This document shows positions 95 through 29,177 of a DNA stretch of 31,603 bases, piece after piece. Positions within the stretch are counted from its first letter, which is position 1; every line of letters starts with the position of its first letter. Both the position numbers and the translations under genes were made by a program. Origin of the DNA: Saccoglossus kowalevskii (taxonomy: Eukaryota > Hemichordata > Enteropneusta > Harrimaniidae); contig NW_003106290.1 of assembly GCF_000003605.2 (NCBI RefSeq), positions 1 through 31,603 of the forward strand, in the 5' to 3' direction. Below the pieces are notes generated by a model. The model did no database searches. It was given only the letters and a program-made list of their open reading frames with translations, and was not told the DNA's origin.

Positions 95-1265
95 AGTTAA
101 ACCCTTGCATCGTCACCAACAATAAGAGGTACAGTTAAACCCTCACATCGTCACTAACAATAAGAGATACAGTTAAACCCTCACATCGTCACTAACAATA
201 AGAGGTACAGTTAAACCCTTGCATCGTCACTAACAATAAGAGGTACAGTTAAACCCTCACTTCATCACTAACGATAAGAGGTACAGTTAAACCCTCACAT
301 CGTCACTAACAATAAGAGGTACAGGTAAACGCTCACATCGTCACTAACAATAAGATGTACAGTTAAACCCCTTACATCGTCACTAATGATAAGAGGTACA
401 GTAAAACCCTCACACCGTCACTAACAATAAGAGGTACAGTTAAACCCACACACCATCACTAACAATAAGAGGCACAGTTAAACCCTCGCATCGTCACCAA
501 CAATAAGAGGTACAGTTAAACCCTCACATCGTCACTAACGATAAGAGGTACAGTTAAACCCTCACACCGTCACTAACAATAAGATGTACAGTTAAACCCT
601 CACATCGTCACTAACAATAAGAAGTAGAGTTAAACTCTCACATCGTCACTAACCATAAGAGGGACAGGTAAACGCTCACATCGTCACTAACAATAAGAGG
701 GACAGTTAAACCCTCTCATCGTCACTAACAATAAGAGGTACAGTTAAACCCTCACACAGTCACTAACAATAAGAGGTACAGTTAAATCCTCACATCGTCA
801 CTAACAATAAGAGGGACAGTTAAACCCTCACATCGTCACTAACAATAAGAGGTACAGTTAAACCCTTACATCGTCACTAACGATAAGAGGTACAGTTAAA
901 CCCTCACACCGTCACTAACAATAAGAGGTACAGTTAAACCCACACACCGTCACTAACAATAAGAGGCACAGTTAAACCCTCACATCGTCACCAACAATAA
1001 GAGGTACAGTTAAACCCTCACATCGTCACTAACGCTAAGAGGTACAGTTAAACCCTTACACCGTCACTAACAATAAGAGGTACAGTTAAACTCTCACATC
1101 GTCACTAACAATAAGAGGGACAGTTAAACGCTCACATCGTCTCTAACAATAAGAGGGACAGTTAAACTCTCACATCGTCACTAACAATAAGAGGTACAGT
1201 TAAACGCTCACATCGTCACTAACAAAAAAGGTACAGTTAAACCCACACATCGTCACTAACAATAA
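95..1265 (+). repeat. Long duplication D1, left copy (partner 28006-29177)
   Basis: About 31 consecutive units repeat the same variant order as 28006-29177, at a constant offset of 27911 that becomes 27912 after about 1206. I saw roughly one mismatch per 250 bp. Examples are CAGTT against CAGGT at 28387 and CGTCAC against CGTTAC near 28480. One local difference adds a base: CGCTCAC here is a run of six C at 29116-29121. Upstream of 95 and downstream of 1265 the two loci diverge. The block includes the 6-unit module M1 and a two-unit deletion shared only by these two copies. Confidence 0.9.
578..805 (+). repeat. 6-unit module M1, copy 1
   Basis: Ordered variants are GATGTAC; GAAGTAGAG; CCATAAGAGGGACAGG with AAACGCTC; GGGAC with CTCTCATCG; CACACAGTC; AAATCC. 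This order occurs six times in the window, at 578, 5555, 6811, 21295, 27230 and 28489. In this copy and in 28489 the AAATCC unit is followed directly by GGGAC-CCCTCAC. The other four copies have two further units there (CACAAAC/GTAGAG/CTCTC and GGGAC/CGCTC). Confidence 0.9.
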
Positions 1266-1867
1266 CAGATACAGTTAAACCCTCACATCGTCACTAACGA
1301 TAAGACGTACAGTTAAACCCTCACACCGTCACTAACAATAAGAGGTACAGTTAAACCCACACACCGTCACTAACAATAAGAGGCACAGTTAAACCCTCGC
1401 ATCGTCAACAACAATAAGAGGTACAGTTAAACCTCACATCGTCACTAACAATAAGAGGTACAGTTAAACCCTCACACCGTCACTAACAATAAGAGGTACA
1501 GTTAAACCCTCGCATCGTAACTAACAATAAGAGGCACAGTTAAACCCTCGCATCGTCACCAACAATAAGAGGTACAGTTAAACCCTCACATCGTCACTAA
1601 CGATAAGATGTACAGTTAAACCCTCACATCGTCACTAACAATAAGAGGTACAGGTAAACGCTCACATCGTCACTAACAATAAGAGGTACAGTTAAACCCT
1701 CACATCGTCACTAACAATAAGAGGCACAGGTAAACGCTCACATCGTCACTAACAATAAGAGGTACAGTTAAACCCTCACATCGTCACTAACAATAAGAGG
1801 TACAGTTAAACCCTCACATCGTCACTAACAATAAGAGATACAGTTAAACCCTCACATCGTCACTAAC

Positions 1868-1905
1868 AATAAGAGGTACAGTTAAACCCTCACATCGTCA
1901 CTAAC
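1868..1905 (+). repeat. Representative consensus unit
   Basis: This unit matches the majority sequence at every position and can serve as the reference for numbering. Plus-strand TAA stops lie at unit positions 3-5, 16-18 and 35-37, one in each frame. The minus strand has TAG, TGA, TGA and TAA stops covering all three frames. It holds one CpG (29-30), one GTAC (9-12, an RsaI site), one GTCAC (30-34) and a short internal direct repeat, TCAC at 23-26 and 31-34. It also contains TAAACCCT, which matches eight bases of the plant-type telomere C-strand register. Confidence 0.95.
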
Positions 1906-2731
1906 AATAAGAGGTACAGTTAAACCCTCACATCGTCACTAACAATAAGAGGTACAGTTAAACCCTCACATCGTCACTAACAATAAGAGATACATTTAAA
2001 CCCTCACATCGTCACTAACACTAAGAGGTACAGTTAAACCCTCACACCGTCACTAACAATAAGAGGTACAGTTAAACCCTCACATCGTCACTAACAATAA
2101 GAGGTACAGTTAAACCCTCGCATCGTCACTAACACTAAGAGGTACAGTTAAACCCTCACGCCGTCACTAACAATAAGAGGTACAGTTAAACCCTCACATC
2201 GTCACTAACAATAAGAGGTACAGTTAAACCCTCGCATCGTCACTAACAATAAGAGGTACAGTTAAACCCTCACATCGTCACTAACAATAAGAGGTACAGT
2301 TAAACCCTCGCATCGTCACTAACAATAAGAGGTACAGTTAAACCCTCACATCGTCACTAACAATAAGAGGTAGAGTTAAACCCTCACATCGTCACTAACA
2401 GTAAGATGTACAGTTAAACCCTCACATCGTCACTAACAATAAGAGGTACAGTTAAACCCTCACATCGTCACTAACAGTAAGATGTACAGTTAAACCCTCA
2501 CATCGTCACTAACAATAAGAGGTACAGTTAAACCCTCGCATCGTCACTAACAATAAGAGGTACAGTTCAACCCTCACATCGTCACTAACAGTAAGATGTA
2601 CAGTTAAACCCTCACATCGTCACTAACAATAAGAGGTACAGTTAAACCCTCGCATCGTCACTAACAATAAAAGGTACAGTTAAACCCTCACATCGTCACT
2701 AACAGTAAGATGTACAGTTAAACCCTCACAT

Positions 2732-2741
2732 CGCCATTAAC
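2732..2741 (+). repeat. Marker CGCCATTAAC, copy 1 of 4 (module M2)
   Basis: The double change CGTCACTAAC to CGCCATTAAC occurs only at 2732, 9918, 11894 and 24520. In all four it follows AAAAGGTAC and CAGTAAGATG units. It is followed by GAGATAC-CTCTCAC, two AACGATAAG units, CACACCG, GGCAC-TTGCATCG, GGCAC-CGCATCGTCACC and CATTGTCAATAAC. The next unit reads CCCCCGCATCATC at 2732 and 24520 but CCCTCGCATCGTC at 9918 and 11894, giving two sub-lineages. Confidence 0.9.
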
Positions 2742-2770
2742 AATAAGAGGTACAGTTAAACCCCCGCATC

Positions 2771-3540
2771 ATCACTAACAATAAGAGATACAGTTAAACT
2801 CTCACATCGTCACTAACGATAAGAGGTACAGTTAAACCCTCACATCGTCACTAACGATAAGAGGTACAGTTAAACCCTCACACCGTCACTAACAATAAGA
2901 GGCACAGTTAAACCCTTGCATCGTCACTAACAATAAGAGGCACAGTTAAACCCTCGCATCGTCACCAACAATAAGAGGTACAGTTAAACCCTCACATTGT
3001 CAATAACAATAAGAGGTACAGTTAAACCCTCACATCCGTCACTAACAATAAGAGGTACAGTTAAACCCTCGCATCGTCACTAACAATAAGAGGCACAGTT
3101 AAACCCTCGCATCGTCATTAACAATAAGAGGGACAGTTAAACCCTCACATGGTCACTAACAATAAGAGGGACAGTTAAACCCTCACATAGTCATTAACAA
3201 TAAGAGGTACAGTTAAACCATCACATCGTCACTAACAATAAGAGGTACAGGTAAACGCTCACATCGTCACTAACAATAAGAGGTACAGTTCAACCCTCAC
3301 ATCGTCACTAACAATAAGAGGTACAGGTAAACGCACACATCGTCACTAACAATAAGAGGTACAGTTAAACCCTCACATCGTCACTAACGATAAGAGGTAC
3401 AGTTAAACCCTCACATCGTCAATAACAGTAAGAGGTACAGTTAAACCCTCACATTGTCACTAACAATAAGAGGTACAGTTAAATCATCACATCGTCAATA
3501 ACAGTAAGAGATACAGTTAAACCCTCATATTGTCACTAAC
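2771..3540. repeat. Variant-rich stretch V2
   Basis: The first 350 bp are the tail of duplication D5. From about 3118 the units are unlike the partner: GGGAC with CATGGTC and CATAGTC, CAATAACAGTAAG (about 3420 and 3494), CATATTGTC, and AATAATAGG at about 3541. These changes are mostly single-copy in the window, so this stretch looks less recently copied than its neighbours. Confidence 0.65.
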
Positions 3541-4440
3541 AATAATAGGTACAGTTAAACCCTCGCATCGTCACTAACAATAAGAGGTACAGTTAAACCC
3601 TCACACCGTCACTAACAATAAGAGGTACAGTTAAACCCTCACACCGTCACTAACAATAAGAGGTACAGTTAAACCCTCGCATCGTCACTAACAATAAGAG
3701 GTACAGTTAAACCCTCACATCGTCACTAACAATAAGAGGTACAGTTAAACCCTCACATCGTCACTAACAATAAGAGGTACAGTTAAACCCTCACATCGTC
3801 ACTAACAATAAGAGGTACAGTTAAACCCTCACATCGTCACTAACAATAAGAGGTACAGTTAAACCCTCACATCGTCACTAACAATAAAAGGTACAGTTAA
3901 ACCATCACATCGTCACTAACAATAAGAGGTACAGTTAAACCCTCGCATCGTCACTAACAATAAGAGGTACAGTTAAACCCTCACATCGTCACTAACAATA
4001 AGAGGTACAGTTAAACCCTCACATCGTCACTAACAATAAGAGGTACAGTTAAACCCTCACATCATCACTAACGATAAGAGGTACAGTTAAACCCTCACAT
4101 CGTCACTAACAATAAGAGGTACAGGTAAACGCTCACATCGTCACTAACAATAAGAGGTACAGTTAAACCCTCACATCGTCACTAACAATAAGAGGTACAG
4201 GTAAACGCTCACATCGTCACTAACAATAAGAGGTACAGTTCAACCCTCACATCGTCACTAACAATAAGAGGTACAGGTAAACGCTCACATCGTCACTAAC
4301 AATAAGAGGTACAGTTAAACCCTCACATCGTCACTAACAATAAGAGGTACAGGTAAACGCTCACATCGTCACTAACAATAAGAGGTACAGTTAAACCCTC
4401 ACATCGTCACTAACAATAAGAGGTACAGTTAAACCCTCAC
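3541..4440. repeat. Consensus-rich stretch H2
   Basis: About six consecutive near-perfect consensus units run from about 3700 to 3890, then an AAAAGGTAC unit followed by AAACCATCAC (3902) and CGCATCG. The same string recurs around 14.76-15.05 kb and 17.43-17.70 kb. After about 4090 consensus units alternate with CAGGTAAACG units, which leads into V3. Confidence 0.7.
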
Positions 4441-5032
4441 ATCGTCACTAACAATAAGAGGGACAGTTAAACGCTCACATCGTCACTAACAATAAAAGGC
4501 ACAGTTAAACCGTCACATCATCACAAACAATAAGAGGTAGAGTTAAACTCTCACATCGTCACTAACAATAAGAGGGACAGTTAAACCGTCGCATCGTCAC
4601 CAACAATAAGAGGTACAGTTAAACCCTCACATCATCACTAACGATAAGATGTACAGTTAAACTCTCACATCGTCACTAACAATAAGAGGTACAGTTAAAC
4701 CCTTACATCGTCACTAACAGTAAGATGTACAGGTAAACCCTTACATCGTCACTAACAATAAGAGGTACAGTTAAACCCTCACATCATCACTAACGATAAG
4801 AGGTACAGTTAAACCCTCACATCGTCACTAACAATAAGAGGTACAGGTAAACGCTCACATCGTCACTAACAATAAGAGGTACAGTTAAACCCTCACATCG
4901 TCACTAACAATAAGAGGTACAGGTAAACGCTCACATCGTCACTAACAATAAGAGGTACAGTTCAACCCTCACATCGTCACTAACAATAAGAGGTACAGGT
5001 AAACGCTCACATCGTCACTAACAATAAGAGGG

Positions 5033-5919
5033 ACAGTTAAACCCTCACATCGTCACTAACAATAAGAGGTACAGGTAAACGCTCACATCGTCACTAACAA
5101 TAAGAGGTACAGTTAAACCCTCACATCGTCACTAACAATAAGAGGTACAGTTAAACCCTCACATCGTCACTAACAATAAGAGATACAGTTAAACCCTCAC
5201 ATCGTCACTAACAATAAGAGATACATTTAAACCCTCACATCGTCACTAACACTAAGAGGTACAGTTAAACCCTCACACCGTCACTAACAATAAGAGGTAC
5301 AGTTAAACCCTCACATCCTCACTAACAATAAGAGGTACAGTTAAACCCTCACATCGTCACTAACAATAAGAGGTACAGTTAAACCCTCACATCGTCACTA
5401 ACAATAAGAGATTCAGTTAAACCCTCACATCGTCACTAACAATAAGAGGTACAGTTAAACCCTCGCATCGTCACTAACAATAAGAGGTACAGTTAAACCC
5501 TCACATCGTCACTAACGATAAGAGGTACAGTTAAACCCTAACACCGTCACTAACAATAAGATGTACAGTTAAACCCTCACATCGTCACTAACAATAAGAA
5601 GTAGAGTTAAACTGTCACATCGTCACTAACCATAAGAGGGACAGGTAAACGCTCACATCGTCACTAACAATAAGAGGGACAGTTAAACCCTCTCATCGTC
5701 ACTAACAATAAGAGGTACAGTTAAACCCTCACACAGTCACTAACAATAAGAGGTACAGTTAAATCCTCACATCGTCACAAACAATAAGAGGTAGAGTTAA
5801 ACTCTCACATCGTCACTAACAATAAGAGGGACAGTTAAACGCTCACATCGTCACTAACAATAAGAGGGACAGTTAAACCCTCACATCGTCACTAACAATA
5901 AGAGGTACAGTTAAACCCT
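5033..5919 (+). repeat. Long duplication D2, left copy (partner 20773-21659)
   Basis: I saw no mismatch across 887 bp at a constant offset of 15740. The identity includes rare private variants: AACACTAAG with CACACCG, CATCCTCAC, AGATTCAG, CCTAACACCG, and AACTGTCAC in place of AACTCTCAC. It starts just after a G/T difference at 5032/20772 and ends at a C/T difference at 5920/21660. Identity of rare variants over 23 units implies a recent copy event or ongoing conversion. Confidence 0.92.
5555..5782 (+). repeat. 6-unit module M1, copy 2
   Basis: The M1 order is intact, with CCATAAGAGGG at 5630. A private change AACTGTCAC follows GAAGTAGAG and is shared only with the copy at 21295. It is followed by the two extra units (CACAAAC/GTAGAG/CTCTC and GGGAC/CGCTC) that copies 1 and 6 lack. 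Confidence 0.9.
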
Positions 5920-6198
5920 CACATCGTCACTAACAATAAGAGGTACAGGTAAACGCTCACATCGTCACTAACAATAAGAGGTACAGTTCAACCCTCACAT
6001 CGTCACTAACAATAAGAGGTACAGGTAAACGCACACATCGTCACTAACAATAAGAGGTACAGTTAAACCCTCACATCGTCACTAACGATAAGAGGTACAG
6101 TTAAACCCTCACATCGTCACTAACAATAAGAGGTACAGGTAAACGCTCACATCGTCACTAACAATAAGATGTACAGTTAAACCCCTTACATCGTCACT

Positions 6199-6617
6199 AA
6201 TGATAAGAGGTACAGTAAAACCCTCACACCATCACTAACAATAAGAGGTACAGTTAAACCCACACACCATCACTAACAATAAGAGGCACAGTTAAACCCT
6301 CGCATCGTCACCAACAATAAGAGGTACAGTTAAACCCTCACATCGTCACTAACGATAAGAGGTACAGTTAAACGCTCACATCGTCACTAACAATAAGAGA
6401 TACAGTTAAACCCTCACATCGTCACTAACAATAAGAGGTACAGTTAAACCCTCGCATCGTCACTAACAATAAGAGGTACAGTTAAACCCTCACTTCATCA
6501 CTAACGATAAGAGGTACAGTTAAACCCTCACATCGTCACTAACAATAAGAGGTACAGGTAAACGCTCACATCGTCACTAACAATAAGATGTACAGTTAAA
6601 CCCCTTACATCGTCACT
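6199..6617 (+). repeat. 11-unit repeat (419 bp) between AATGATAAG markers
   Basis: The marker pair AATGATAAG and GTAAAACC occurs at 6199 and again at 6618, 419 bp apart (11 x 38 plus one extra C in CCCCTTAC). The first five units after each marker match. The second copy then switches to CACACCG and module M1 instead of CGCTC-GAGATAC. The marker occurs seven times in the window: 2, 385, 6199, 6618, 26618, 27037 and 28296. Every AATGATAAG whose upstream unit is visible is preceded by a 39-bp unit with CCCC. Confidence 0.88.
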
Positions 6618-6810
6618 AATGATAAGAGGTACAGTAAAACCCTCACACCATCACTAACAATAAGAGGTACAGTTAAACCCACACACCATCACTAACAATA
6701 AGAGGCACAGTTAAACCCTCGCATCGTCACCAACAATAAGAGGTACAGTTAAACCCTCACATCGTCACTAACGATAAGAGGTACAGTTAAACCCTCACAC
6801 CGTCACTAAC

Positions 6811-7038
6811 AATAAGATGTACAGTTAAACCCTCACATCGTCACTAACAATAAGAAGTAGAGTTAAACTCTCACATCGTCACTAACCATAAGAGGGACAG
6901 GTAAACGCTCACATCGTCACTAACAATAAGAGGGACAGTTAAACCCTCTCATCGTCACTAACAATAAGAGGTACAGTTAAACCCTCACACAGTCACTAAC
7001 AATAAGAGGTACAGTTAAATCCTCACATCGTCACAAAC
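6811..7038 (+). repeat. 6-unit module M1, copy 3
   Basis: M1 order is complete, with CCATAAGAGGG at 6886. It matches copy 5 (27230) at the D3 offset of 20419. It is followed by CACAAAC, GTAGAG-CTCTC and GGGAC-CGCTC units as in copies 2, 4 and 5. Confidence 0.9.
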
Positions 7039-7200
7039 AATAAGAGGTAGAGTTAAACTCTCACATCGTCACTAACAATAAGAGGGACAGTTAAACGCTC
7101 ACATCGTCACTAACAATAAGAGGGACAGTTAAACCCTCACATCGTCACTAACAATAAGAGGTACAGTTAAACCCTCACATCGTCACTAACAATAAGAGGT

Positions 7201-7995
7201 ACAGGTAAACCCTCACGTCTTCACTAACAATAAGAGGTACAGTTAAACCCTCACATCGTCACTAACAATAAGAAGTACAGTTGAACCCTCGCATCGTCAC
7301 TAACAATAAGAGGTACAGTTAAACCCTCACATCGTCACTAACAATAAGAGGTAGAGTTAAACCCTCACATCGTCACTAACAATAAGAGGTACAGTTAAAC
7401 CCTCACATCGTCACTAACAATAAGAAGTACAGTTAAACCCTCGCATCGTCACTAACAATAAGAGGTACAGTTAAACCCTCACATCGTCACTAACAATAAG
7501 AGGTACAGTTAAACCCTCACGTCTTCACTAACAATAAGAGGTACAGTTAAACCCTCACATCGTCACTAACAATAGGAGATACAGTTAAACCCTCACATCG
7601 TCACTAACAATAAGAGGTACAGTTAAACCCTCACATCGTCACTAACAATAAAAGGTACAGGTAAACGCTCACATCGTCACTAACAATAAGAGGTACAGTT
7701 AAACCCTCACATCGTCACTAACAATAAGAGGTAGAGTTAAACCCTCACATCGTCACCAACAATAAGAGGTACAGTTAAACCCTCACATCGTCACTAACAA
7801 TAAGAGGAACAGTTAAACCCTCACATCTTCACTAACAATAAGAGGTACAGTTAAACCCTCACATCGTCACTAACAATAAGATGTACAGTTAAACCCTCAC
7901 ATCGTCACTAACAATAAGAGGTACAGTTAAACTTTCACATCGTCACTAACAGTAAGATGTACAGTTAAACCCTCACATCGTCACTAACAATAAGA
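7201..7995 (+). repeat. Duplication D7, first locus (partners 16135-17347 and 30518-31603)
   Basis: Shared landmarks are CACGTCTTC at 7214 and 7518 (304 bp apart, 8 units), GAAGTACAGTTGAACC, AATAGGAGATAC, AAAAGGTACAGGTAAACG (about 7650), GTAGAG-CACCAAC, GAGGAACAG (about 7804), GATGTAC (about 7882) and AAACTTTCAC (7929). The offset to the second locus is 8934, rising to 9352 downstream because that locus has one additional 418-bp (11-unit) tandem copy. This locus is therefore the unexpanded form. Confidence 0.88.
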
Positions 7996-8166
7996 GGTAC
8001 AGTTAAACCCTCACATCGTCACTAACAATAAGAGGTACAGTTAAACCCTCACATCGTCACTAACGATAAGAGGTACAGTTAAACCCTCACATCTTCACTA
8101 ACAATAAGAGGTACAGTTAAACCCTCAAATCGTCACTAACAATAAGAGATACAGTTAAACCCTCAC

Positions 8167-8890
8167 ATCGTCACTAACAATAAGAGGTACAGTTAAACCC
8201 TCACATCGTCACTAACAAAAAGAGGTACAGTTAAACCCTAACATCGTCACTAACAATAAGAGATACAGTTAAACCCTCACATCGTCACTAACAATAAGAG
8301 GTACAGTTAAACCCTCACATCGTCACTAACAATAAGAGGTACAGTTAAACCCTCACATCGTCACTAACAGTAAGATGTACAGTTAAACCCTCACATCGTC
8401 ACTAACAATAAGAGGTACAGTTAAAACCTCACATCGTCACTACCAGTAAGATGTACAGTTAAACCCTCGCATCGTCATTAATAATAAGAGGTACAGTTAA
8501 ACCCTCACATCGTCACTAACAATAAGAGGTACAGTTAAACCCTCACATCGTCACTAACAATAAGAGGTACAGTTAAACCCTCGCATCGTCACTAACAATA
8601 AGAGGTACAGTTAAACCCTCACATCGTCACTAACAATAAGAGGTACAGTTAAACCCTCGCATCGTCACTAACCATATGAGGCACAGTTAAACCCTCACAT
8701 CGTCACTAACAATAAGAGGTACAGTTAAACGCTCACATCGTCACTAACAGTAAGAGGTACAGTTAAACCCTCACATCGTCACTAACAATAAGAGGTACAG
8801 TTAAACCTCTCACATCGTCACTAACAATAAGAGGTACAGTTAAACCCTCACATCGTCACTAACGATAAGAGGTACAGTTAAACCCTCACA
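8167..8890 (+). repeat. Duplication D6, first copy (partners 22200-23045 and 29579-30432)
   Basis: The variant order is AACAAAAAGAGG (about 8214), CCTAACATCG, GAGATAC, CAGTAAGATG, TTAAAACCTCAC, CACTACCAGTAAG, CGCATCGTCATTAATAATAAG (CATT at 8476) and AACCATATGAGGCAC (8671). Offsets are 14033 to the second copy and 21412 to the third, becoming 21417 past the third copy's 5-bp insertion. Homology with the third copy also reaches upstream to about 7990. The ATATGAGG change is shared with copy three but not copy two (ATAAGAGG), so copies one and three are the closer pair. Confidence 0.88.
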
Positions 8891-10301
8891 TCGTCACTAA
8901 CAATAAGAGGCACGGGTAAACGCTCACATCGTCACTAACAATAAGAGGTACAGTTAAACCCTCACATCGTCACTAACAATAAGAGGTACAGTTAAACCCT
9001 CACATCGTCACTAACAATAAGAGATACAGTTAAACCCTCACATCGTCACTAACAATAAGAGGTACAGTTAAACCCTCACATCGTCACTAACAATAAGAGG
9101 TACAGTTAAACCCTCGCATCGTCACTAACAATAAGAGGTACAGTTAAACCCTCGCATCGTCACTAACAATAAGAGATACATTTAAACCCTCACATCGTCA
9201 CTAACACTAAGAGGTACAGTTAAACCCTCACACCGTCACTAACAATAAGAGGTACAGTTAAACCCTCACATCGTCACTAACAATAAGAGGTACAGTTAAA
9301 CCCTCGCATCGTCACTAACACTAAGAGGTACAGTTAAACCCTCACACCGTCACTAACAATAAGAGGTACAGTTAAACCCTCACATCGTCACTAACAATAA
9401 GAGGTACAGTTAAACCCTCACATCGTCACTAACAATAAGAGGTACAGTTAAACCCTCACATCGTCACTAACAATAAGAGGTACAGTTAAACCCTCGCATC
9501 GTCACTAACAATAAGAGGTACAGTTAAACCCTCACATCGTCACTAACAATAAGAGATACAGTTAAACCCTCACATCGTCACTAACAGTAAGATGTACAGT
9601 TAAACCCTCACATCGTCACTAACAATAAGAGGTACAGTTAAACCCTCACATCGTCACTAACAGTAAGATGTACAGTTAAACCCTCACATCGTCACTAACA
9701 ATAAGAGGTACAGTTAAACCCTCGCATCGTCACTAACAATAAGAGGTACAGTTCAACCCTCACATCGTCACTAACAGTAAGATGTACAGTTAAACCCTCA
9801 CATCGTCACTAACAATAAGAGGTACAGGTAAACCCTCGCATCGTCACTAACAATAAAAGGTACAGTTAAACCCTCACATCGTCACTAACAGTAAGATGTA
9901 CAGTTAAACCCTCACATCGCCATTAACAATAAGAGGTACAGTTAAACCCTCGCATCGTCACTAACAATAAGAGATACAGTTAAACTCTCACATCGTCACT
10001 AACGATAAGAGGTACAGTTAAACCCTCACATCGTCACTAACGATAAGAGGTACAGTTAAACCCTCACACCGTCACTAACAATAAGAGGCACAGTTAAACC
10101 CTTGCATCGTCACTAACAATAAGAGGCACAGTTAAACCCTCGCATCGTCACCAACAATAAGAGGTACAGTTAAACCCTCACATTGTCAATAACAATAAGA
10201 GGTACAGTTAAACCCTCACACCGTCACTAACAATAAGAGGTACAGTTAAACCCTCGCATCGTCACTAACAATAAGAGGCACAGTTAAACCCTCGCATCGT
10301 C
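8870..10301 (+). repeat. Long duplication D5, right copy (partner 1684-3116)
   Basis: This is the same 37-38-unit order as 1684-3116 at offset 7186/7185: GGCAC-GGTAAACG (8909), GAGATAC (9021), TACATTT (9177), AACACTAAG, CGCCATTAAC (9918) and CATTGTCAATAAC. Its second half, from about 9405, is also the start of the 52-unit block A, so D5 and the 52-unit repeat overlap. Confidence 0.85.
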
Positions 10302-11380
10302 ACCAACAATAAGAGGTACAGTTAAACCCTCACACCGTCACTAACAATAAGATGTACAGTTAAACCCTCTCATTGTCACTAACAATAAGAGGTACAGTTA
10401 AACCCTCACACCGTCACTAACAATAAGAGGTACAGTTAAATCCTCACATCGTCACAAACAATAAGAGGTAGAGTTAAACTCTCACATCGTCACTAACAAT
10501 AAGTGGGACAGTTAAACGCTCACATCGTCACTAACAATAAGAGGGACAGTTAAACCCTCACATCGTCACTAACAATAAGAGGTACAGTTAAACCCTTACA
10601 TCATCACTAACGATAAGAGGTACAGTTAAACCCTCACACCGTCACTAACAATAAGAGGTACAGTTAAACCCACACACCGTCACTAACAATAAGAGGCACA
10701 GTTAAACCCTCACATCGTCACCAACAATAAGAGGTACAGTTAAACCCTCACATCGTCACTAACGCTAAGAGGAATAGTTAAACCCTTTCACCATCACTAA
10801 CAATAAGAGGTACAGTTAAACTCTCACATCGTCACTAACAATAAGAGGGACAGTTAAACGCTCACATCGTCACTAACAATAAAAGGCACAGTTAAACCGT
10901 CACATCATCACAAACAATAAGAGGTAGAGTTAAACTCTCACATCGTCACTAACAATAAGAGGGACAGTTAAACCGTCGCATCGTCACCAACAATAAGAGG
11001 TACAGTTAAACCCTCACATCATCACTAACGATAAGATGTACAGTTAAACTCTCACATCGTCACTAACAATAAGAGGTACAGTTAAACCCTTACATCGTCA
11101 CTAACAGTAAGATGTACAGGTAAACCCTCACATCGTCACTAACAATAAGAGGTACAGTTAAACCCTCACATCATCACTAACGATAAGAGGTACAGTTAAA
11201 CCCTCACATCGTCACTAACAATAAGAGGTACAGGTAAACGCTCACATCGTCACTAACAATAAGAGGTACAGTTAAACCCTCACATCGTCACTAACAATAA
11301 GAGGTACAGGTAAACGCTCACATCGTCACTAACAATAAGAGGTACAGTTCAACCCTCACATCGTCACTAACAATAAGAGG
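9405..11380 (+). repeat. 52-unit block A of a tandem pair (1976 bp)
   Basis: Block A repeats as block B at an offset of exactly 1976 bp (52 x 38). Matching landmarks include TTCAACC, CGCCATTAAC (9918 and 11894), TTGCATCG, CATTGTCAATAAC, CTCTCATTGTC, CACAAAC, AAGTGGGAC, CTTACATCATC, CCCACACACCG, AACGCTAAG, CACATCATCACAAAC and CGTCGCATCGTCACC. The rare AAGTGGGAC is confined to A and B, marking them as sisters. A has private GAATAG and CTTTCACC (about 10775-10790), and lacks the extra A that block B has near 12786. Confidence 0.9.
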
Positions 11381-14320: not shown

Positions 14321-14338
14321 CCTCACATCGTCACTAAC

Positions 14339-14642: not shown

Positions 14643-15630
14643 AATAAGAGGTACAGTTAAACCCTCACATCATCACTAACAATAAAAAGTACAGTTAAAC
14701 CCTCACATCGTCACTGACAATAAGAGGTACAGGTAAACCCTCGCATCGTCACTAACAATAAGAGGTACAGTTAAACCCTCACATCGTCACTAACAATAAG
14801 AGGTACAGTTAAACCCTCACATCGTCACTAACAATAAGAGGTACAGTTAAACCCTCACATCGTCACTAACAATAAGAGGTACAGTTAAACCCTCACATCG
14901 TCACTAACAATAAGAGGTACAGTTAAACCCTCACATCGTCACTAACAATAAAAGGTACAGTTAAACCATCACATCGTCACTAACAATAAGAGGTACAGTT
15001 AAACCCTCGCATCGTCACTAACAATAAGAGGTACAGTTAAACCCTCACATCGTCACTAACAATAAGAGGTACAGTTAAACCCTCACATCGTCACTAACAA
15101 TAAGAGGTACAGTTAAACCCTCACATCGTCACTAACAGTAAGAGGTACAGTTAAACCCTCACATCGTCACTAACAATAAGAGGTACAGTTAAACCCTCAC
15201 ATCGTCACTAACAGTAAGAGGTACAGTTAAACCCTCACATCTTCACTAACAATAAGAGGTACAGTTAAACCCTCGCATCGTCACTAACAATAAGAGGTAC
15301 AGTTAAACCCTTACATCGTCACTAACAATAAAAGGTACAGTTAAACCCTCACATCTTCACTAACAATAAGAAATACAGTTAAACCCTCACATCGTCACTA
15401 ACAATAAGAGGTGCAGTTAAACCCTCACATCTTCACTAACAATAAGAGCTACAATTAAACTCTCACATCGTCACTAACAATAAGAGGTACAGTTAAACCC
15501 TGGCATCGTCACTAACAATAAGAGGTACAGTTAAACCCTCACATCGTCACTAACAATAAGAGGTACAGTTAAACCCTCACATCGTCACTAACAATAAGAG
15601 GTACAGTTAAACCCTCACATCGTCACTAAC

Positions 15631-15934: not shown

Positions 15935-16134
15935 AATAAGAGGTACAGTTAAACCCTCACATCGTCACTAACAATAAGAAGTACAGTTAAACCCTCGCAT
16001 CGTCACTAACAATAAGAGGTACAGTTAAACCCTCACATCGTCACTAACAATAAGAGGTACAGTTAAACCCTCGCATCGTCACTAACAATAAGAGGTACAG
16101 TTAAACCCTCACATCGTCACTAACAATAAGAGGT

Positions 16135-18594: not shown

Positions 18595-19392
18595 AATAAG
18601 AGGTAGAGTTAAACCCTCACATCGTCACTAACAATAAGAGGTACAGTTAAACCCTCGCATCGTCACTAACAATAAGAGGTACAGTTAAACCCTCACATCG
18701 TCACTAACAATAAGGGGTACAGTTAAACCCTCGCATCGTCACTAACAATAAGAGGTACAGTTAAACCCTCGCATCGTCACTAACAATAAGAGGTACAGTT
18801 AAACCCTTACATCGTCACTAACAATAAGAGGTACAGTTAAACCCTCACATCGTCACTAACAATAAGAGGTACAGTTAAACCCTCGCATCGTCACTAACAA
18901 TAAGAGGTACAGTTAAACCCTCACATCGTCACTAACAATAAGATGTACAGTTAAACCCTCACATCGTCACTAACAATAAGAGGTAGAGTTAAACCCTCAC
19001 ATCGTCACTAACAATAAGAGGTACAGGTAAACGCTCACATCGTCACTAACAATAAGAGGTACAGTTAAACCCTCACATCTTCACTAACAATAAGAGGTAC
19101 AGTTAAACCCTCACATCGTCACTAACAATAAGAGATACAGTTAAACCCTCACATCGTCACTAACAATAAGAGGTACAGTTAAAACCTCACATCGTCACTA
19201 ACAATAAGAGCTACAGTTAAACCCTCACATCGTCACTAACAATAAGAGGTACAGTTAAACCCTCACATCGTCACTAACAATAAGAGGTACAGTTAAACCC
19301 TCACATCGTCACTAACAATAAAAGGTACAGTTAAACCATCACATCGTCACTAACAATAAGAGGTACAGTTAAACCCTCACATCGTCACTAAC

Positions 19393-19696
19393 AGTAAGAA
19401 GTACAGTTAAACCCTCACATCGCCACTAACAATAAAATGTGCAGTTAAACCCTCACATCTTCACTAACAATAAGAGGTACAGTTAAACCCTCGCATCGTC
19501 ACTAACAATAAGAGGTACAGTTAAACCCTCACATCGTCACTAACAATAAGATGTACAGTTAAACCCTCACATCGTCACTAACAATAAGAGGTACAGTTAA
19601 ACCCTCACATCGTCACTAACAATAAAAAGTACAGTTAAACCCTCACATCGTCACTAACAATAAGAGGTAGAGTTAAACCCTCACATCGTCACTAAC
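19393..19696 (+). repeat. 8-unit module M3, copy 4
   Basis: Offset 5054 (133 units) from copy 1. It has CATCGTC where copies 1 and 2 have CATCATC before AAAAAGTAC. CACTGACAATAAG at 19727 corresponds to 14711 but one unit closer to the module, so a single whole unit separates the two loci. Confidence 0.87.
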
Positions 19697-20121
19697 AATA
19701 AGAGGTACAGTTAAACCCTCACATCGTCACTGACAATAAGAGGTACAGTTAAACCCTCGCATCGTCACTAACAATAAGAGGTACAGTTAAACCCTCACAT
19801 CGTCACTAACAATAAGAGGTACAGTTAAACCCTCACATCGTCACTAACAATAAAAGGTACAGTTAAACCATCACATCGTCACTAACAATAAGAGGTACAG
19901 TTAAACCCTCGCATCGTCACTAACAATAAGAGGTACAGTTAAACCCTCACATCGTCACTAACAATAAGAGGTACAGTTAAACCCTCACATCGTCACTAAC
20001 AATAAGAGGTACAGTTAAACCCTCACATCGTCACTAACAGTAAGAGGTACAGTTAAACCCTCACATCGTCACTAACAATAAAAAGTACAGTTAAACCCTC
20101 ACATCGTCACTAACAATAAGA

Positions 20122-20744
20122 GGTACAGTTAAACCCTCACATCTTCACTAACAATAAGAGGTACAGTTAAACCCTCACATCGTCTCTAACAGTAAGAGGT
20201 ACAGTTAAACCCTCACATCTTCACTAACAATAAGAGGTACAGTTAAACCCTTACATCGTCACTAACAATAAGAGGTACAGTTAAACCCTCACATCGTCAC
20301 TAACAATAAGAGGTACAGTTAAACCCTCGCATCGTCACTAACAATAAGAGGTACAGTTAAACCCTCACATCGTCACTAACAATAAGATGTACAGTTAAAC
20401 CCTCACATCGTCACTAACAATAAGAGGTAGAGTTAAACCCTCACATCGTCACTAACAATAAGAGGTACAGTTAAACCCTCACATCGTCACTAACAATAAG
20501 AGATACAGTTAAACCCTCACATCGTCACTAACAATAAGAGGTACAGTTAAAACCTCACATCGTCACTAACAATAAGAGGTACAGTTAAACCCTCACATCG
20601 TCACTAAACAATAAGAGGTACAGTTAAACCCTCACATCGTCCCTAACAATAAAGAGGTACAGTTAAACCCTCACATCGTCACTAACAATAAAAGGTACAG
20701 TTAAACCATCACATCGTCACTAACAATAAGAGGTACAGTTAAAC
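20122..20744 (+). repeat. Duplication D8, right copy (partner 13700-14320)
   Basis: It carries the same rare CGTCTCTAACAGTAAG (about 20181), CTTACATCG and CGTCCCTAAC (about 20639) as the partner, plus two private +1 indels. Homology stops at about 20744, where CCCTCAC in the partner is CGCTCAC here. From 20773 the sequence is identical to 5033 onward, so two donor blocks meet within about one unit. Confidence 0.87.
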
Positions 20745-20772
20745 GCTCACATCGTCACTAACAATAAGAGGT

Positions 20773-21659
20773 ACAGTTAAACCCTCACATCGTCACTAAC
20801 AATAAGAGGTACAGGTAAACGCTCACATCGTCACTAACAATAAGAGGTACAGTTAAACCCTCACATCGTCACTAACAATAAGAGGTACAGTTAAACCCTC
20901 ACATCGTCACTAACAATAAGAGATACAGTTAAACCCTCACATCGTCACTAACAATAAGAGATACATTTAAACCCTCACATCGTCACTAACACTAAGAGGT
21001 ACAGTTAAACCCTCACACCGTCACTAACAATAAGAGGTACAGTTAAACCCTCACATCCTCACTAACAATAAGAGGTACAGTTAAACCCTCACATCGTCAC
21101 TAACAATAAGAGGTACAGTTAAACCCTCACATCGTCACTAACAATAAGAGATTCAGTTAAACCCTCACATCGTCACTAACAATAAGAGGTACAGTTAAAC
21201 CCTCGCATCGTCACTAACAATAAGAGGTACAGTTAAACCCTCACATCGTCACTAACGATAAGAGGTACAGTTAAACCCTAACACCGTCACTAACAATAAG
21301 ATGTACAGTTAAACCCTCACATCGTCACTAACAATAAGAAGTAGAGTTAAACTGTCACATCGTCACTAACCATAAGAGGGACAGGTAAACGCTCACATCG
21401 TCACTAACAATAAGAGGGACAGTTAAACCCTCTCATCGTCACTAACAATAAGAGGTACAGTTAAACCCTCACACAGTCACTAACAATAAGAGGTACAGTT
21501 AAATCCTCACATCGTCACAAACAATAAGAGGTAGAGTTAAACTCTCACATCGTCACTAACAATAAGAGGGACAGTTAAACGCTCACATCGTCACTAACAA
21601 TAAGAGGGACAGTTAAACCCTCACATCGTCACTAACAATAAGAGGTACAGTTAAACCCT
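20773..21659 (+). repeat. Long duplication D2, right copy (partner 5033-5919)
   Basis: It appears identical to the partner over 887 bp. From about 21260 this locus can also be aligned to 27195 onward at offset 5935, which differs at AACTGTCAC (AACTCTCAC there). So V5 is a patchwork of segments shared with at least two other loci. Confidence 0.92.
21295..21522 (+). repeat. 6-unit module M1, copy 4
   Basis: M1 order with CCATAAGAGGG at 21370 and the AACTGTCAC change shared only with copy 2 at 5555. Confidence 0.9.
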
Positions 21660-22109
21660 TACATCGTCACTAACGATAAGAGGTACAGTTAAACACTCAC
21701 ACCGTCACTAACAATAAGAGGTACAGTTAAACCCACACACCGTCACTAACAATAAGAGGCACAGTTAAACCCTCACATCGTCACCAACAATAAGAGGTAC
21801 AGTTAAACCCTCACATCGTCACTAACGCTAAGAGGTACAGTTAAACCCTTACACCGTCACTAACAATAAGAGGTACAGTTAAACTCTCACATCGTCACTA
21901 ACAATAAGAGGGACAGTTAAACGCTCACATCGTCACTAACAATAAAAGGCACAGTTAAACCGTCACATCATCACAAACAATAAGAGGTAGAGTTAAACTC
22001 TCACATCATCACTAACAATAAGAGGGACAGTTAAACGCTCACATCGTCACTAACAATAAGAGGGACAGTTAAACTCTCACATCGTCACTAACAATAAGAG
22101 GTACAGTTA

Positions 22110-22121: not shown

Positions 22122-22199
22122 ACATCGTCACTAACAAAAAATGGTACAGTTAAACCCACACATCGTCACTAACAATAAAAAGTACAGTTAAACCCTCAC

Positions 22200-23045
22200 A
22201 TCGTCACTAACAATAAGAGGTACAGTTAAACCCTCACATCGTCACTAACAAAAAGAGGTACAGTTAAACCCTAACATCGTCACTAACAATAAGAGATACA
22301 GTTAAACCCTCACATCGTCACTAACAATAAGAGGTACAGTTAAACCCTCACATCGTCACTAACAATAAGAGGTACAGTTAAACCCTCACATCGTCACTAA
22401 CAGTAAGATGTACATTTAAACCCTCACATCGTCACTAACAATAAGAGGTACAGTTAAAACCTCACATCGTCACTACCAGTAAGATGTACAGTTAAACCCT
22501 CGCATCGTCATTAATAATAAGAGGTACAGTTAAACCCTCACATCGTCACTAACAATAAGAGGTACAGTTAAACCCTCACATCGTCACTAACAATAAGAGG
22601 TACAGTTAAACCCTCGCATCGTCACTAACAATAAGAGGTACAGTTAAACCCTCACGTCGTCACTAACAATAAGAGGTACAGTTAAACCCTCGCATCGTCA
22701 CTAACCATAAGAGGCACAGTTAAACCCTCACATCGTCACTAACAATAAGAGGTACAGTTAAACCCTCACATCGTCACTAACAGTAAGAGGTACAGTTAAA
22801 CCCTCACAACGTCACTAACAATAAGAGGTACAGTTAAACCCTCACATCGTCACAAACAATAAGAGGTACAGTTAAACCCTCACATCGTCACTAACGATAA
22901 GAGGTACAGTTAAACCCTCACATCTTCACTAACAATAAGAGGTACAGTTAAACTCTCACATCGTCACTAACAATAAGAGAAACAGTTAAACCCTCACATC
23001 GTCACTAACAATAAGAGGTACAGTTAAACCCTCACATCGTCACTA
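22200..23045 (+). repeat. Duplication D6, second copy
   Basis: It matches 29579-30432 at offset 7379, rising to 7384 past the 5-bp insertion there. It extends further right than the first copy, through CATCTTC, CTCTCAC and GAGAAACAG (22977 and 30361). It has private TACATTTAAA (22411), CACGTCG (about 22653) and CACAACG (about 22806). Confidence 0.87.
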
Positions 23046-24310: not shown

Positions 24311-26262
24311 TACAGTTAAACCCTCGCATCGTCACTAACAATAAGAGGTACAGTTCAACCCTCACATCGTCACTAACAGTAAGATGTACAGTTAAACCCT
24401 CACATCGTCACTAACAATAAGAGGTACAGTTAAACCCTCGCATCGTCACTAACAATAAAAGGTACAGTTAAACCCTCACATCGTCACTAACAGTAAGATG
24501 TACAGTTAAACCCTCACATCGCCATTAACAATAAGAGGTACAGTTAAACCCCCGCATCATCACTAACAATAAGAGATACAGTTAAACTCTCACATCGTCA
24601 CTAACGATAAGAGGTACAGTTAAACCCTCACATCGTCACTAACGATAAGAGGTACAGTTAAACCCTCACACCGTCACTAACAATAAGAGGCACAGTTAAA
24701 CCCTTGCATCGTCACTAACAATAAGAGGCACAGTTAAACCCTCGCATCGTCACCAACAATAAGAGGTACAGTTAAACCCTCACATTGTCAATAACAATAA
24801 GAGGTACAGTTAAACCCTCACACCGTCACTAACAATAAGAGGTACAGTTAAACCCTCGCATCGTCACTAACAATAAGAGGCACAGTTAAACCCTCGCATC
24901 GTCACCAACAATAAGAGGTACAGTTAAACCCTCACACCGTCACTAACAATAAGATGTACAGTTAAACCCTCTCATTGTCACTAACAATAAGAGGTACAGT
25001 TAAACCCTCACACCGTCACTAACAATAAGAGGTACAGTTAAATCCTCACATCGTCACAAACAATAAGAGGTAGAGTTAAACTCTCACATCGTCACTAACA
25101 ATAAGAGGGACAGTTAAACGCTCACATCGTCACTAACAATAAGAGGGACAGTTAAACCCTCACATCGTCACTAACAATAAGAGGTACAGTTAAACCCTTA
25201 CATCATCACTAACGATAAGAGGTACAGTTAAACCCTCACACCGTCACTAACAATAAGAGGTACAGTTAAACCCACACACCGTCACTAACAATAAGAGGCA
25301 CAGTTAAACCCTCACATCGTCACCAACAATAAGAGGTACAGTTAAACCCTCACATCGTCACTAACGCTAAGAGGTATAGTTAAACCCTTACACCATCACT
25401 AACAATAAGAGGTACAGTTAAACTCTCACATCGTCACTAACAATAAGAGGGACAGTTAAACGCTCACATCGTCACTAACAATAAAAGGCACAGTTAAACC
25501 GTCACATCATCACAAACAATAAGAGGTAGAGTTAAACTCTCACATCGTCACTAACAATAAGAGGGACAGTTAAACCGTCGCATCGTCACCAACAATAAGA
25601 GGTACAGTTAAACCCTCACATCATCACTAACGATAAGATGTACAGTTAAACTCTCACATCGTCACTAACAATAAGAGGTACAGTTAAACCCTTACATCGT
25701 CACTAACAGTAAGATGTACAGGTAAACCCTCACATCGTCACTAACAATAAGAGGTACAGTTAAACCCTCACATCATCACTAACGATAAGAGGTACAGTTA
25801 AACCCTCACATCGTCACTAACAATAAGAGGTACAGGTAAACGCTCACATCGTCACTAACAATAAGAGGTACAGTTAAACCCTCACATCGTCACTAACAAT
25901 AAGAGGTACAGGTAAACGCTCACATCGTCACTAACAATAAGAGGTACAGTTCAACCCTCACATCGTCACTAACAATAAGAGGTACAGGTAAACGCACACA
26001 TCGTCACTAACAATAAGAGGTACAGTTAAACCCTCACATCGTCACTAACAATAAGAGGTACAGGTAAACGCTCACATCGTCACTAACAATAAGAGGTACA
26101 GTTAAACCCTCACATCGTCACTAACAATAAGAGGTACAGTTAAACCCTCACATCGTCACTAACAATAAGAGATACAGTTAAACCCTCACATCGTCACTAA
26201 CAATAAGAGATACATTTAAACCCTCACATCGTCACTAACACTAAGAGGTACAGTTAAACCCT
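24310..26262 (+). repeat. Block C, distant copy of the 52-unit block (partners 11684-13637 and 9708-11348)
   Basis: The offset from block B is 12626, falling to 12625 after B's extra A. The offset from block A is 14602. CGCCATTAAC is at 24520. C shares GGTATAG and CTTACACCATC with B, but CCCCCGCATCATC with the copy at 2732, and it has AAGAGGGAC where A and B have AAGTGGGAC. The right edge is sharp: homology with B ends at B's CCCTCCACATCG unit. Confidence 0.88.
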
Positions 26263-26497
26263 CACACCGTCACTAACAATAAGAGGTACAGTTAAACCCT
26301 CACATCGTCACTAACAATAAGAGGTACAGTTAAACCCTCACATCGTCACTAACAATAAGAGGTACAGTTAAACCCTCACATCGTCACTAACAATAAGAGA
26401 TACAGTTAAACCCTCACATCGTCACTAACAATAAGAGGTACAGTTAAACCCTCGCATCGTCATTAACAATAAGAGGTACAGTTAAACCCTCACTTCA

Positions 26498-27594
26498 TCA
26501 CTAACGATAAGAGGTACAGTTAAACCCTCACATCGTCACTAACAATAAGAGGTACAGGTAAACGCTCACATCGTCACTAACAATAAGATGTACAGTTAAA
26601 CCCCTTACATCGTCACTAATGATAAGAGGTACAGTAAAACCCTCACACCATCACTAACAATAAGAGGTACAGTTAAACCCACACACCATCACTAACAATA
26701 AGAGGCACAGTTAAACCCTCGCATCGTCACCAACAATAAGAGGTACAGTTAAACCCTCACATCGTCACTAACGATAAGAGGTACAGTTAAACGCTCACAT
26801 CGTCACTAACAATAAGAGATACAGTTAAACCCTCACATCGTCACTAACAATAAGAGGTACAGTTAAACCCTCGCATCGTCACTAACAATAAGAGGTACAG
26901 TTAAACCCTCACTTCATCACTAACGATAAGAGGTACAGTTAAACCCTCACATCGTCACTAACAATAAGAGGGACAGGTAAACGCTCACATCGTCACTAAC
27001 AATAAGATGTACAGTTAAACCCCTTACATCGTCACTAATGATAAGAGGTACAGTAAAACCCTCACACCATCACTAACAATAAGAGGTACAGTTAAACCCA
27101 CACACCATCACTAACAATAAGAGGCACAGTTAAACCCTCGCATCGTCACCAACAATAAGAGGTACAGTTAAACCCTCACATCGTCACTAACGATAAGAGG
27201 TACAGTTAAACCCTCACACCGTCACTAACAATAAGATGTACAGTTAAACCCTCACATCGTCACTAACAATAAGAAGTAGAGTTAAACTCTCACATCGTCA
27301 CTAACCATAAGAGGGACAGGTAAACGCTCACATCGTCACTAACAATAAGAGGGACAGTTAAACCCTCTCATCGTCACTAACAATAAGAGGTACAGTTAAA
27401 CCCTCACACAGTCACTAACAATAAGAGGTACAGTTAAATCCTCACATCGTCACAAACAATAAGAGGTAGAGTTAAACTCTCACATCGTCACTAACAATAA
27501 GAGGGACAGTTAAACGCTCACATCGTCACTAACAATAAGAGGGACAGTTAAACCCTCACATCGTCACTAACAATAAGAGGTACAGTTAAACCCT
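26498..27594 (+). repeat. Long duplication D3, right copy (partner 6079-7175)
   Basis: It carries AATGATAAG markers at 26618 and 27037 (419 bp apart) and M1 copy 5, all at the 20419 offset. After 27594 it continues with CTTACATCG and AACGATAAG, as at 21659, instead of following the left copy. Confidence 0.9.
27230..27457 (+). repeat. 6-unit module M1, copy 5
   Basis: Complete M1 order with CCATAAGAGGG at 27305, followed by the two extra units CACAAAC/GTAGAG/CTCTC and GGGAC/CGCTC. Confidence 0.9.
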
Positions 27595-27819
27595 TACATC
27601 GTCACTAACGATAAGAGGCACAGTTAAACACTCACACCGTCACTAACAATAAGAGGTACAGTTAAACCCACACACCGTCACTAACAATAAGAGGCACAGT
27701 TAAACCCTCACATCGTCACCAACAATAAGAGGTACAGTTAAACCCTCACATCGTCACTAACGCTAAGAGATACAGTTAAACCCTTACACCGTCACTAACA
27801 ATAAGAGGTACAGTTAAAC

Positions 27820-27829
27820 TCTCACTCAC
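27820..27829 (+). other. 4-bp duplication inside a unit
   Basis: AAACTCTCACTCACATCG replaces AAACTCTCACATCG, a short slip of CTCA/TCAC. It is private. The equivalent unit at about 21885 in the related stretch lacks it, so it arose after those loci were copied. Confidence 0.85.
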
Positions 27830-28005
27830 ATCGTCACTAACAATAAGAGGGACAGTTAAACGCTCACATCGTCACTAACAATAAAAGGCACAGTTAAACC
27901 GTCACATCATCACAAACAATAAGAGGTAGAGTTAAACTCTCACATCATCACTAACAATAAGAGGGACAGTTAAACGCTCACATCGTCACTAACAATAAGA
28001 GAGAC

Positions 28006-29177
28006 AGTTAAACCCTTGCATCGTCACCAACAATAAGAGGTACAGTTAAACCCTCACATCGTCACTAACAATAAGAGATACAGTTAAACCCTCACATCGT
28101 CACTAACAATAAGAGGTACAGTTAAACCCTTGCATCGTCACTAACAATAAGAGGTACAGTTAAACCCTCACTTCATCACTAACGATAAGAGGTACAGTTA
28201 AACCCTCACATCGTCACTAACAATAAGAGGTACAGGTAAACGCTCACATCGTCACTAACAATAAGATGTACAGTTAAACCCCTTACATCGTCACTAATGA
28301 TAAGAGGTACAGTAAAACCCTCACACCGTCACTAACAATAAGAGGTACAGTTAAACCCACACACCATCACTAACAATAAGAGGCACAGGTAAACCCTCGC
28401 ATCGTCACCAACAATAAGAGGTACAGTTAAACCCTCACATCGTCACTAACGATAAGAGGTACAGTTAAACCCTCACACCGTTACTAACAATAAGATGTAC
28501 AGTTAAACCCTCACATCGTCACTAACAATAAGAAGTAGAGTTAAACTCTCACATCGTCACTAACCATAAGAGGGACAGATAAACGCTCACATCGTCACTA
28601 ACAATAAGAGGGACAGTTAAACCCTCTCATCGTCACTAACAATAAGAGGTACAGTTAAACCTTCACACAGTCACTAACAATAAGAGGTACAGTTAAATCC
28701 TCACATCGTCACTAACAATAAGAGGGACAGTTAAACCCTCACATCGTCACTAACAATAAGAGGTACAGTTAAACCCTTACATCGTCACTAACGATAAGAG
28801 GTACAGTTAAACCCTCACACCGTCACTAACAATAAGAGGTACAGTTAAACCCACACACCGTCACTAACAATAAGAGGCACAGTTAAACCCTCACATCGTC
28901 ACCAACAATAAGAGGTACAGTTAAACCCTCACATCGTCACTAACGCTAAGAGGTACAGTTAAACCCTTACACCGTCACTAACAATAAGAGGTACAGTTAA
29001 ACTCTCACATCGTCACTAACAATAAGAGGGACAGTTAAACGCTCACATCGTCTCTAACAATAAGAGGGACAGTTAAACTCTCACATCGTCACTAACAATA
29101 AGAGGTACAGTTAAACCCCCCACATCGTCACTAACAAAAAAGGTACAGTTAAACCCACACATCGTCACTAACAATAA
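28006..29177 (+). repeat. Long duplication D1, right copy (partner 95-1265)
   Basis: Same unit order as 95-1265, with private GAGAGACAG at its left edge, ACAGGTAAACCC (28387), CACCGTTAC (about 28478), GGGACAGATAAACG (about 28573), CTTCACACAG (about 28661) and the six-C run at 29116. The AATGATAAG marker is at 28296 and M1 copy 6 at 28489. Confidence 0.9.
28489..28716 (+). repeat. 6-unit module M1, copy 6
   Basis: M1 order with CCATAAGAGGG at 28564. As in copy 1, the following two units (76 bp) found after copies 2-5 are missing and AAATCC is followed directly by GGGAC-CCCTCAC. Confidence 0.9.

Follow-up and report, generated by a model that had tools for sequence, protein, structure and literature searches.

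Block distances in the CEN178/CEN180 satellite arrays of Arabidopsis are irregular and are not known to follow a fixed period. The higher-order repeats (HORs) of these centromeres have been annotated pairwise, each as two duplicated blocks of several monomers (PMC10199239), and another study reports non-allelic conversion together with in-frame insertions and deletions as the processes acting on them, the conversions being shorter than one monomer (PMC12321929). For the human minisatellites MS32, MS205, CEB1 and MSY1, SDSA gene conversion has been proposed as the mutation process, with MSY1 conversion tracts inferred to span at most 25 bp (PMC2599865), and alpha-satellite domains are described as layered, older and diverged families lying outside and younger ones inside (PMC2729386). 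Whether satellites are homogenised by unequal exchange, by conversion or by break-induced replication is still debated, and a short-unit array rich in variants allows both tract length and distance to be read from one sequence.

The window studied here, 31,603 nucleotides of Saccoglossus kowalevskii, is an entire unplaced contig (NW_003106290.1) that ends at 31603 and consists of a complete 38-bp tandem array at 9-31603 (forward strand, as are all features below) with the consensus unit AAGAGGTACAGTTAAACCCTCACATCGTCACTAACAAT. TRF reports it as a single row, 9-31603, with period 38, 830.8 copies and 92% matches, and our unit split yields 831 head-to-tail units in one orientation, 809 of them exactly 38 nt long. 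These comprise 178 distinct unit sequences, including 85 singletons, and depart from the consensus at ca. 1.5 bases per unit (1239 differences summed over all 831); random unit pairs are ca. 7.5% divergent. Since a short non-coding unit is repeated head to tail over a long distance, the locus is a tandem satellite or minisatellite, and 38 bp falls within the 9-100 bp of hypervariable minisatellite units. A coding or RNA role was ruled out, as the array holds no ORF of at least 60 aa (table 11), has no Rfam match at gathering score and folds weakly (z of -0.77 and -1.72). Strings of 20-21 nt from the unit did not occur in published papers that were searched, and a literature search by unit length gave no evident match in titles and the beginnings of abstracts of the papers listed. 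The array looks ordinary, with no indication of any function beyond that of a turnover-prone satellite.

What sets its order apart from chance is a set of 39 block pairs scoring at least 40 bits, a threshold reached in none of 300 unit-order shuffles (100 global, 100 inside 24-unit bins and 100 inside 8-unit bins, with maxima of 21.0, 30.5 and 35.2, respectively). Block length ranges from 7 to 50 units (0.27-1.9 kb), with a median of 15 units or 570 bp; the two members of a pair differ by 0-1.42% (median 0.37%), and 614 of the 831 units lie inside at least one block. In having these 39 multi-monomer duplications spread over a range of distances, the array resembles block-HOR satellites of CEN178-like organization. 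The lags between partners span 11-734 units, with 31 of the 39 pairs (79%) more than 150 units apart and only 4 of adjacent type, in which the block is longer than half of the spacing between partners. The distances are compatible with random placement (KS p = 0.25, the 39 pairs being non-independent) without an excess of near copies, and among the 31 pairs with a divergence of at most 0.5% they depart from it toward longer distances (p = 0.035).

The original prediction had described at least eight families of duplicated strings, 0.6-2 kb each, at eleven unrelated distances. This observation is confirmed. All eleven are whole numbers of units and appear with high scores as diagonals in the unit-by-unit comparison: 1976, 5054, 5935, 6422, 7186 and 7379 bp correspond to 52, 133, 156, 169, 189 and 194 units, and 12626, 14383, 15740, 20419 and 27911 bp to 332, 378, 414, 537 and 734 units. 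Whole-unit spacing is uninformative on its own, since any head-to-tail array would give it. Some blocks at these distances fall slightly short of the proposed 0.6 kb (418 and 608 bp at 14383 bp, 570 bp at 6422 bp). Duplicated strings were recovered, but they are not eight independent families, because overlapping pairs link transitively into 5 groups, one of which connects 10 stretches across the window, not all of them similar over their full length.

One block, here called block X, is present three times: copy 1 (9589-11374, 47 units) is the tandem neighbour of copy 2 (11565-13617) at lag 52, matching its part 11565-13351, and the part of copy 2 at 11717-13617 pairs at a lag of 332 units with copy 3 (24343-26242, 50 units; 7 differences). 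Two blocks of 28 units have partners far across the window, 6090-7155 at 26509-27574 (20419 bp, 1 difference) and 124-1188 at 28035-29099 (27911 bp, 4 differences), and the 22 units at 5064-5899 recur without any difference at 20804-21639 (15740 bp). At lag 189 (7186 bp), 35 units at 1681-3010 are paired with 8867-10196; at lag 156 (5935 bp), 22 units at 21222-22057 are paired with 27157-27996. The 25 units at 4456-5405 match 25445-26394 and, in part, 12820-13617 and 10843-11412, and the 22 units at 8030-8866 match 29442-30282 and have a linked stretch at 22215-23012. Shorter blocks include 14038-14645 (16 units; partner 19092-19699, 5054 bp) and 13734-14303 (15 units; partner 20156-20727, 6422 bp), and in 16432-17267 a stretch of 11 units (418 bp) is duplicated in tandem, side by side and without differences.

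Because the contig is all repeat and has no unique anchor, and because 8 of the 39 pairs are identical, one might suspect that blocks were reused or haplotypes mixed during assembly. We consider such an artefact very improbable, as the other 31 pairs differ at 1-10 sites and each of the three copies of block X carries scattered private differences; the many conflicting distances would also be unlike a simple head-to-tail join of two haplotypes. Judged from the sequence, assembly duplication thus appears unlikely.

One dominant period would have spoken against the mosaic of the original prediction, but lag analysis found no dominant long lag in the array, which rules out a fixed long period and agrees with the coexistence of many copy events of differing size and distance. 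There is only a weak dimer signal, with 11.8% identity at lag 2 vs 5.7% by chance (2.08 times chance), and this order is seen in particular modules; a module of partly alternating, dimeric units lies at 7156-7991 and has linked stretches in 16052-17343 and 30435-31574. The comparison with alpha-satellite that the original prediction had drawn does not hold at the level of the unit, which is 38 bp and not ca. 171 bp, and neither the latter unit length nor the single dominant higher-order period of an alpha-satellite-like HOR was found. The dimer signal and the tying of 10 stretches into one overlap group could be taken as traces of a former fixed HOR that has decayed, yet without a dominant long lag, and with the lags of the 39 pairs scattering as in random placement, we give this reading almost no credence.

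The blocks end abruptly. Near the top 25 blocks, up to 15 units from their edges, identity is seen in 30 of 690 unit pairs, and along the remainder of their diagonals it falls to chance (651/12362, i.e., 5.3% vs 5.7%), both counts omitting other scored blocks on those diagonals. This led us to reject the idea that these blocks are remnants of long parent duplications, and it weighs against unequal exchange at two scales, in which occasional long exchanges of tens to hundreds of units are eroded to remnants by short duplications and deletions. Such exchange would account for the classic adjacent duplications at lag 52 (47-unit block) and lag 11 (11-unit block), and some blocks occur in common order in 2555-8866 and 24343-30282; this order, though, was matched by 29% and 58% of 500 randomisations and is ruled out as a signal, being no better than random placement. 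The model also predicts neighbour-unit identity at 1.53 times chance vs 0.85 observed. We therefore regard two-scale exchange as possible but unlikely, even though it performs best among the tandem models in simulation.

The simulations, whose model space, tolerances and uniform starting array were our own choices, comprised 1 run per setting for equilibrium starts, 8 for the insertion/deletion comparison and 12 for a ranking of 84 settings and for mixtures. In this ranking the top 12 settings were all ectopic copying with a mean patch of 20-40 units. The best exchange setting, the two-scale one, had a distance of 1.30, equal, as printed, to that of the twelfth copying setting; 6 of the 18 copying settings ranked below it (1.32-1.97), and exchange with a single length distribution reached 1.62 or worse. 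Taking the best 3 settings for each fraction of copy events, mixtures gave best distances of 2.1-2.5 at 0-10% copying and 1.24 at 25%, falling to 0.69-0.83 once copying made up 50% or more. In these models, distance-independent patch copying thus fits best and two-scale exchange next, though no simulated model reproduced the excess at lag 2 (2.08 times chance). Another route would be in-frame indels that act locally over a long time, reach tens of units in size and are accompanied by tiny conversions; small adjacent in-frame indels with conversions are reported as sufficient in a study of Arabidopsis centromeres (PMC12321929). For the present array we find this route improbable: tandem-only simulations with a mean of 5-25 units, which had indels only, left 0-15% of pairs more than 150 units apart across the settings listed vs 79% observed, and sub-unit conversion tracts would be too short to transfer blocks of 7-50 units.

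On balance, we think it more probable than not that this non-coding 38-bp array has been reshuffled mainly by templated copying of patches to unrelated places, with tandem duplication as a rarer process. Also in favour of this reading, adjacent identical non-consensus units are depleted (3 vs ca. 9.5 expected, P = 0.014). The array would have spread from nearly uniform units, and at a break or stalled fork inside it the repairing strand may have invaded a unit that was out of register but in phase, after which tens of units would be copied before return, be it by SDSA gene conversion or by template-switching BIR. The donor of each patch of ca. 0.3-1.9 kb may lie elsewhere in the array, on the sister or on the homologue, and a block source could also lie outside the present contig. 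Adjacent tandem duplication takes place as well, as the pairs at lags 52 and 11 show, but in the minority of cases, and single-unit slippage would play little part. The stronger claim, that distance-independent transfer of such patches is the chief form of turnover and that slippage and unequal exchange contribute hardly at all, we hold only tentatively; if it is true, homogenisation and diversity of a short-unit satellite would both stem from ectopic copying. The copying may proceed by replacement or by insertion at a distance: spanning copies show net changes both near the block length and near zero, values that depend on overlapping pairs, and in simulation an insertion/deletion model likewise gave mostly distant copies. 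Reported conversion tracts, mostly below 500 bp in humans and ca. 125 bp in Arabidopsis centromeres (PMC12321929), count against conversion here, since they are shorter than many blocks of the array. Overall, the original prediction is partly supported: of the copying processes that it had proposed, the templated or break-induced branch fits best, and repeated unequal exchange is weakly supported as the main process because exchange yields adjacent duplications, to which just 4 of the 39 pairs belong. The present array speaks for copying across distance rather more than for duplication of neighbours.

Patchwork block copying, though real and well marked here, belongs to an established mode of satellite-DNA turnover and does not define a new type of element. 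An arrangement that may resemble that of alpha-satellite domains, with older families outside and younger ones inside, is seen on contig C453, where layered 38-bp families adjoin a 28.2-kb gap (95688-123896) bordered by the repeat of our window; no edge matching the window was found among the array edges of that contig. Open reading frames in two 10-kb stretches of C453, inspected by eye, showed nothing recognisable. Unlike in alpha-satellite, its unit is 38 bp and not ca. 171 bp, the layers lie on the left side only, and there is no fixed HOR. With human minisatellites such as MS32, MS205, CEB1 and MSY1, the array of our window shares a unit of 9-100 bp and variant repeats (PMC2599865), but it comprises 831 units over 31.6 kb in this contig and has patches of up to 50 units as opposed to the short conversions of 25 bp or less reported for MSY1 (PMC2599865). 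Like Arabidopsis CEN178/CEN180, it is built of pairs of duplicated multi-monomer blocks (PMC10199239); it differs in its unit of 38 bp, not 178 bp, and in blocks of 7-50 units, whereas the CEN180 HORs are reported to be mostly of 2 or 3 monomers (PMC12321929).

The window comprises all 31,603 bases of contig C110, with no sequence beyond that end, and forms a single uninterrupted tandem array that TRF reports as one row (9-31603, period 38, 830.8 copies) and that a wraparound split resolves into 831 units in one orientation, 809 of them exactly 38 nt long. There are 178 distinct unit sequences, 85 of which are singletons, and 175/831 units match the consensus sequence exactly. We found no ORF of at least 60 amino acids in the window (table 11), and it has neither a match in Rfam at gathering score nor a notable hairpin upon folding. 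Strand asymmetry is strong and constant over positions 1-31603 (GC skew of about -0.25 to -0.35, AT skew of about +0.28 to +0.34), as expected given the unit sequence.

Comparing all units along every diagonal at a cut-off of at least 40 bits revealed 39 pairs of duplicated blocks in the window, 7 to 50 units long (median 15) and diverging by 0-1.42% within pairs; 614/831 units belong to at least one block. Shuffles of unit order (100 global and 200 preserving regional composition) reached a maximum of 35.2 bits, with 0/300 at 40. The pairs include 11717-13617 / 24343-26242 (50 units, 7 differences), 9589-11374 / 11565-13351 (47 units, 7 differences), 6090-7155 / 26509-27574 (28 units, 1 difference), 124-1188 / 28035-29099 (28 units, 4 differences), and 5064-5899 / 20804-21639 (22 units, no differences). 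All 11 distances of the original prediction reappear as block diagonals, at lags of 52, 133, 156, 169, 189, 194, 332, 378, 414, 537, and 734 units. The eight families that it described are indeed duplicated blocks but not independent ones, since overlaps collapse them into five groups (transitive linkage of block pairs overlapping by at least half), one of which joins 10 stretches that do not all resemble each other over their full length. That the copies were produced by assembly is a remaining doubt because the contig is all repeat and has no unique anchor, though at least one site differs in 31/39 block pairs, and the three copies of one block (9589-11374, 11565-13617, and 24343-26242) differ in 8 of 43 units with private differences in each copy, which a reused read or graph node would not show.

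Identity and information by lag showed no dominant long lag in the window, and the five most informative lags (384, 332, 537, 570, and 563) all coincide with blocks. The expectation of no single fixed period was thus borne out, alongside a weak dimer: unit identity is 11.8% at lag 2 and 4.8% at lag 1 (chance 5.7%), and the lag-2 excess mostly reflects consensus units alternating with other units. Modules of such alternation lie at 7156-7991, 16052-17343, and 30435-31574 and are themselves copied. Variant-rich stretches with around 2 differences per unit from the consensus interleave with near-consensus ones (around 1 per unit). Identical non-consensus units stand side by side less often than chance predicts (3 seen versus about 9.5 expected, P = 0.014), which argues against slippage of single units.

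Only 4/39 pairs resemble adjacent duplications, with block length exceeding half the distance (one at lag 52, three at lag 11), and 31/39 are separated by more than 150 units. Block distances are compatible with random placement (39 non-independent pairs, KS p = 0.25), and those of the 31 pairs at no more than 0.5% divergence are shifted longer than random placement (p = 0.035). Blocks end sharply: in the top 25 pairs (of 39), units are identical in 30/690 comparisons no more than 15 units from an edge and in 651/12362 on the remainder of these diagonals (chance 5.7%), omitting other scored blocks on the same diagonals. A conserved block order between two regions was no better than that of randomly placed blocks, with the observed score reached by 29% and 58% of 500 randomisations.

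Simulated arrays began uniform and received 1.45 substitutions per unit, as against around 1.5 differences per unit from the consensus in the real array. They evolved by tandem duplication and deletion, by ectopic copy-and-replace, by distant insertion with deletion, or by mixtures of these. In the main comparison of 84 settings, each run 12 times and ranked by distance to the real array, ectopic copying took each of the top 12 places, with patches averaging 20-40 units (0.80-1.30); the other six ectopic-copying settings scored 1.32-1.97. The best tandem-only setting, a two-scale one (1.30), over-predicts neighbour identity (1.53x versus 0.85x chance observed), and tandem models with a single length distribution scored at least 1.62. 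The best distances of mixtures were 2.51, 2.13, 1.24, 0.83, 0.79, 0.69, and 0.76 at copy-event shares of 0%, 10%, 25%, 50%, 75%, 90%, and 100%. Distant insertion with deletion likewise places most copies far away, and the simulations therefore do not separate it from replacement. The simulations rank models without proving one, because we chose the distance measure, the tolerances, and the starting state ourselves and no simulated setting reproduced the lag-2 excess. Of the two mechanisms originally proposed, templated or break-induced copying fits best, and unequal exchange as the main process is weakly supported, given how few pairs resemble adjacent duplications. As an unusually legible record, the array favours copying over distance.

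Searching the assembly (572.1 Mb, 4830 contigs) with the window's first 400 bases gave seven matches, all on another contig, C453 (310,872 bases), though such a search ignores words that are very common, and three candidates were scored, so that the count is no measure of rarity. On C453 the window's repeat, in reverse orientation, flanks a 28,209-base N run (95688-123896) on either side. Inward from the left, degenerate 38-mers are followed by a second 38-bp family, a 36/37-bp family, and roughly six units of the family seen in the window, which from the gap outward have 1, 1, 2, 5, 6, and 13 differences from the consensus; right of the gap, around 1.3 units precede unrelated sequence. These layered families (C453:91138-95687, equal to 5139-9688 of the extracted stretch L008) are related, with a shared core like AACTGTACC..TTGTCAG, and the layering is one-sided, adjoining a sequence gap. 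The second 38-bp family is broken by a non-repeat stretch of about 660 bases (approximately L008 7483-8142), possibly a mobile-element insertion. The unplaced 31.6-kb window may fill the C453 gap, which is only a possibility since no match of the window's ends to the gap edges was found.

The array is of a known kind. In reviews, satellite turnover is variously attributed to unequal exchange, conversion, or break-induced replication, which compete as explanations (PMC8997354), and conversion tracts are described as usually around 2 kb or less (PMC2834710). For human minisatellites, one account describes SDSA and infers tracts of no more than 25 bp at MSY1 (PMC2599865). In alpha satellite, older repeat layers are described as surrounding younger ones (PMC2729386). 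Block higher-order repeats have been annotated in Arabidopsis centromeres (PMC10199239), where most CEN180 higher-order repeats are reported to span 2 or 3 monomers, and where small adjacent indels (1-31 monomers) together with sub-monomer conversions reportedly suffice to generate them (PMC12321929), which speaks against generalising distant copying beyond this array. What the window adds to these systems is a record of unusual legibility that points to copying over distance.
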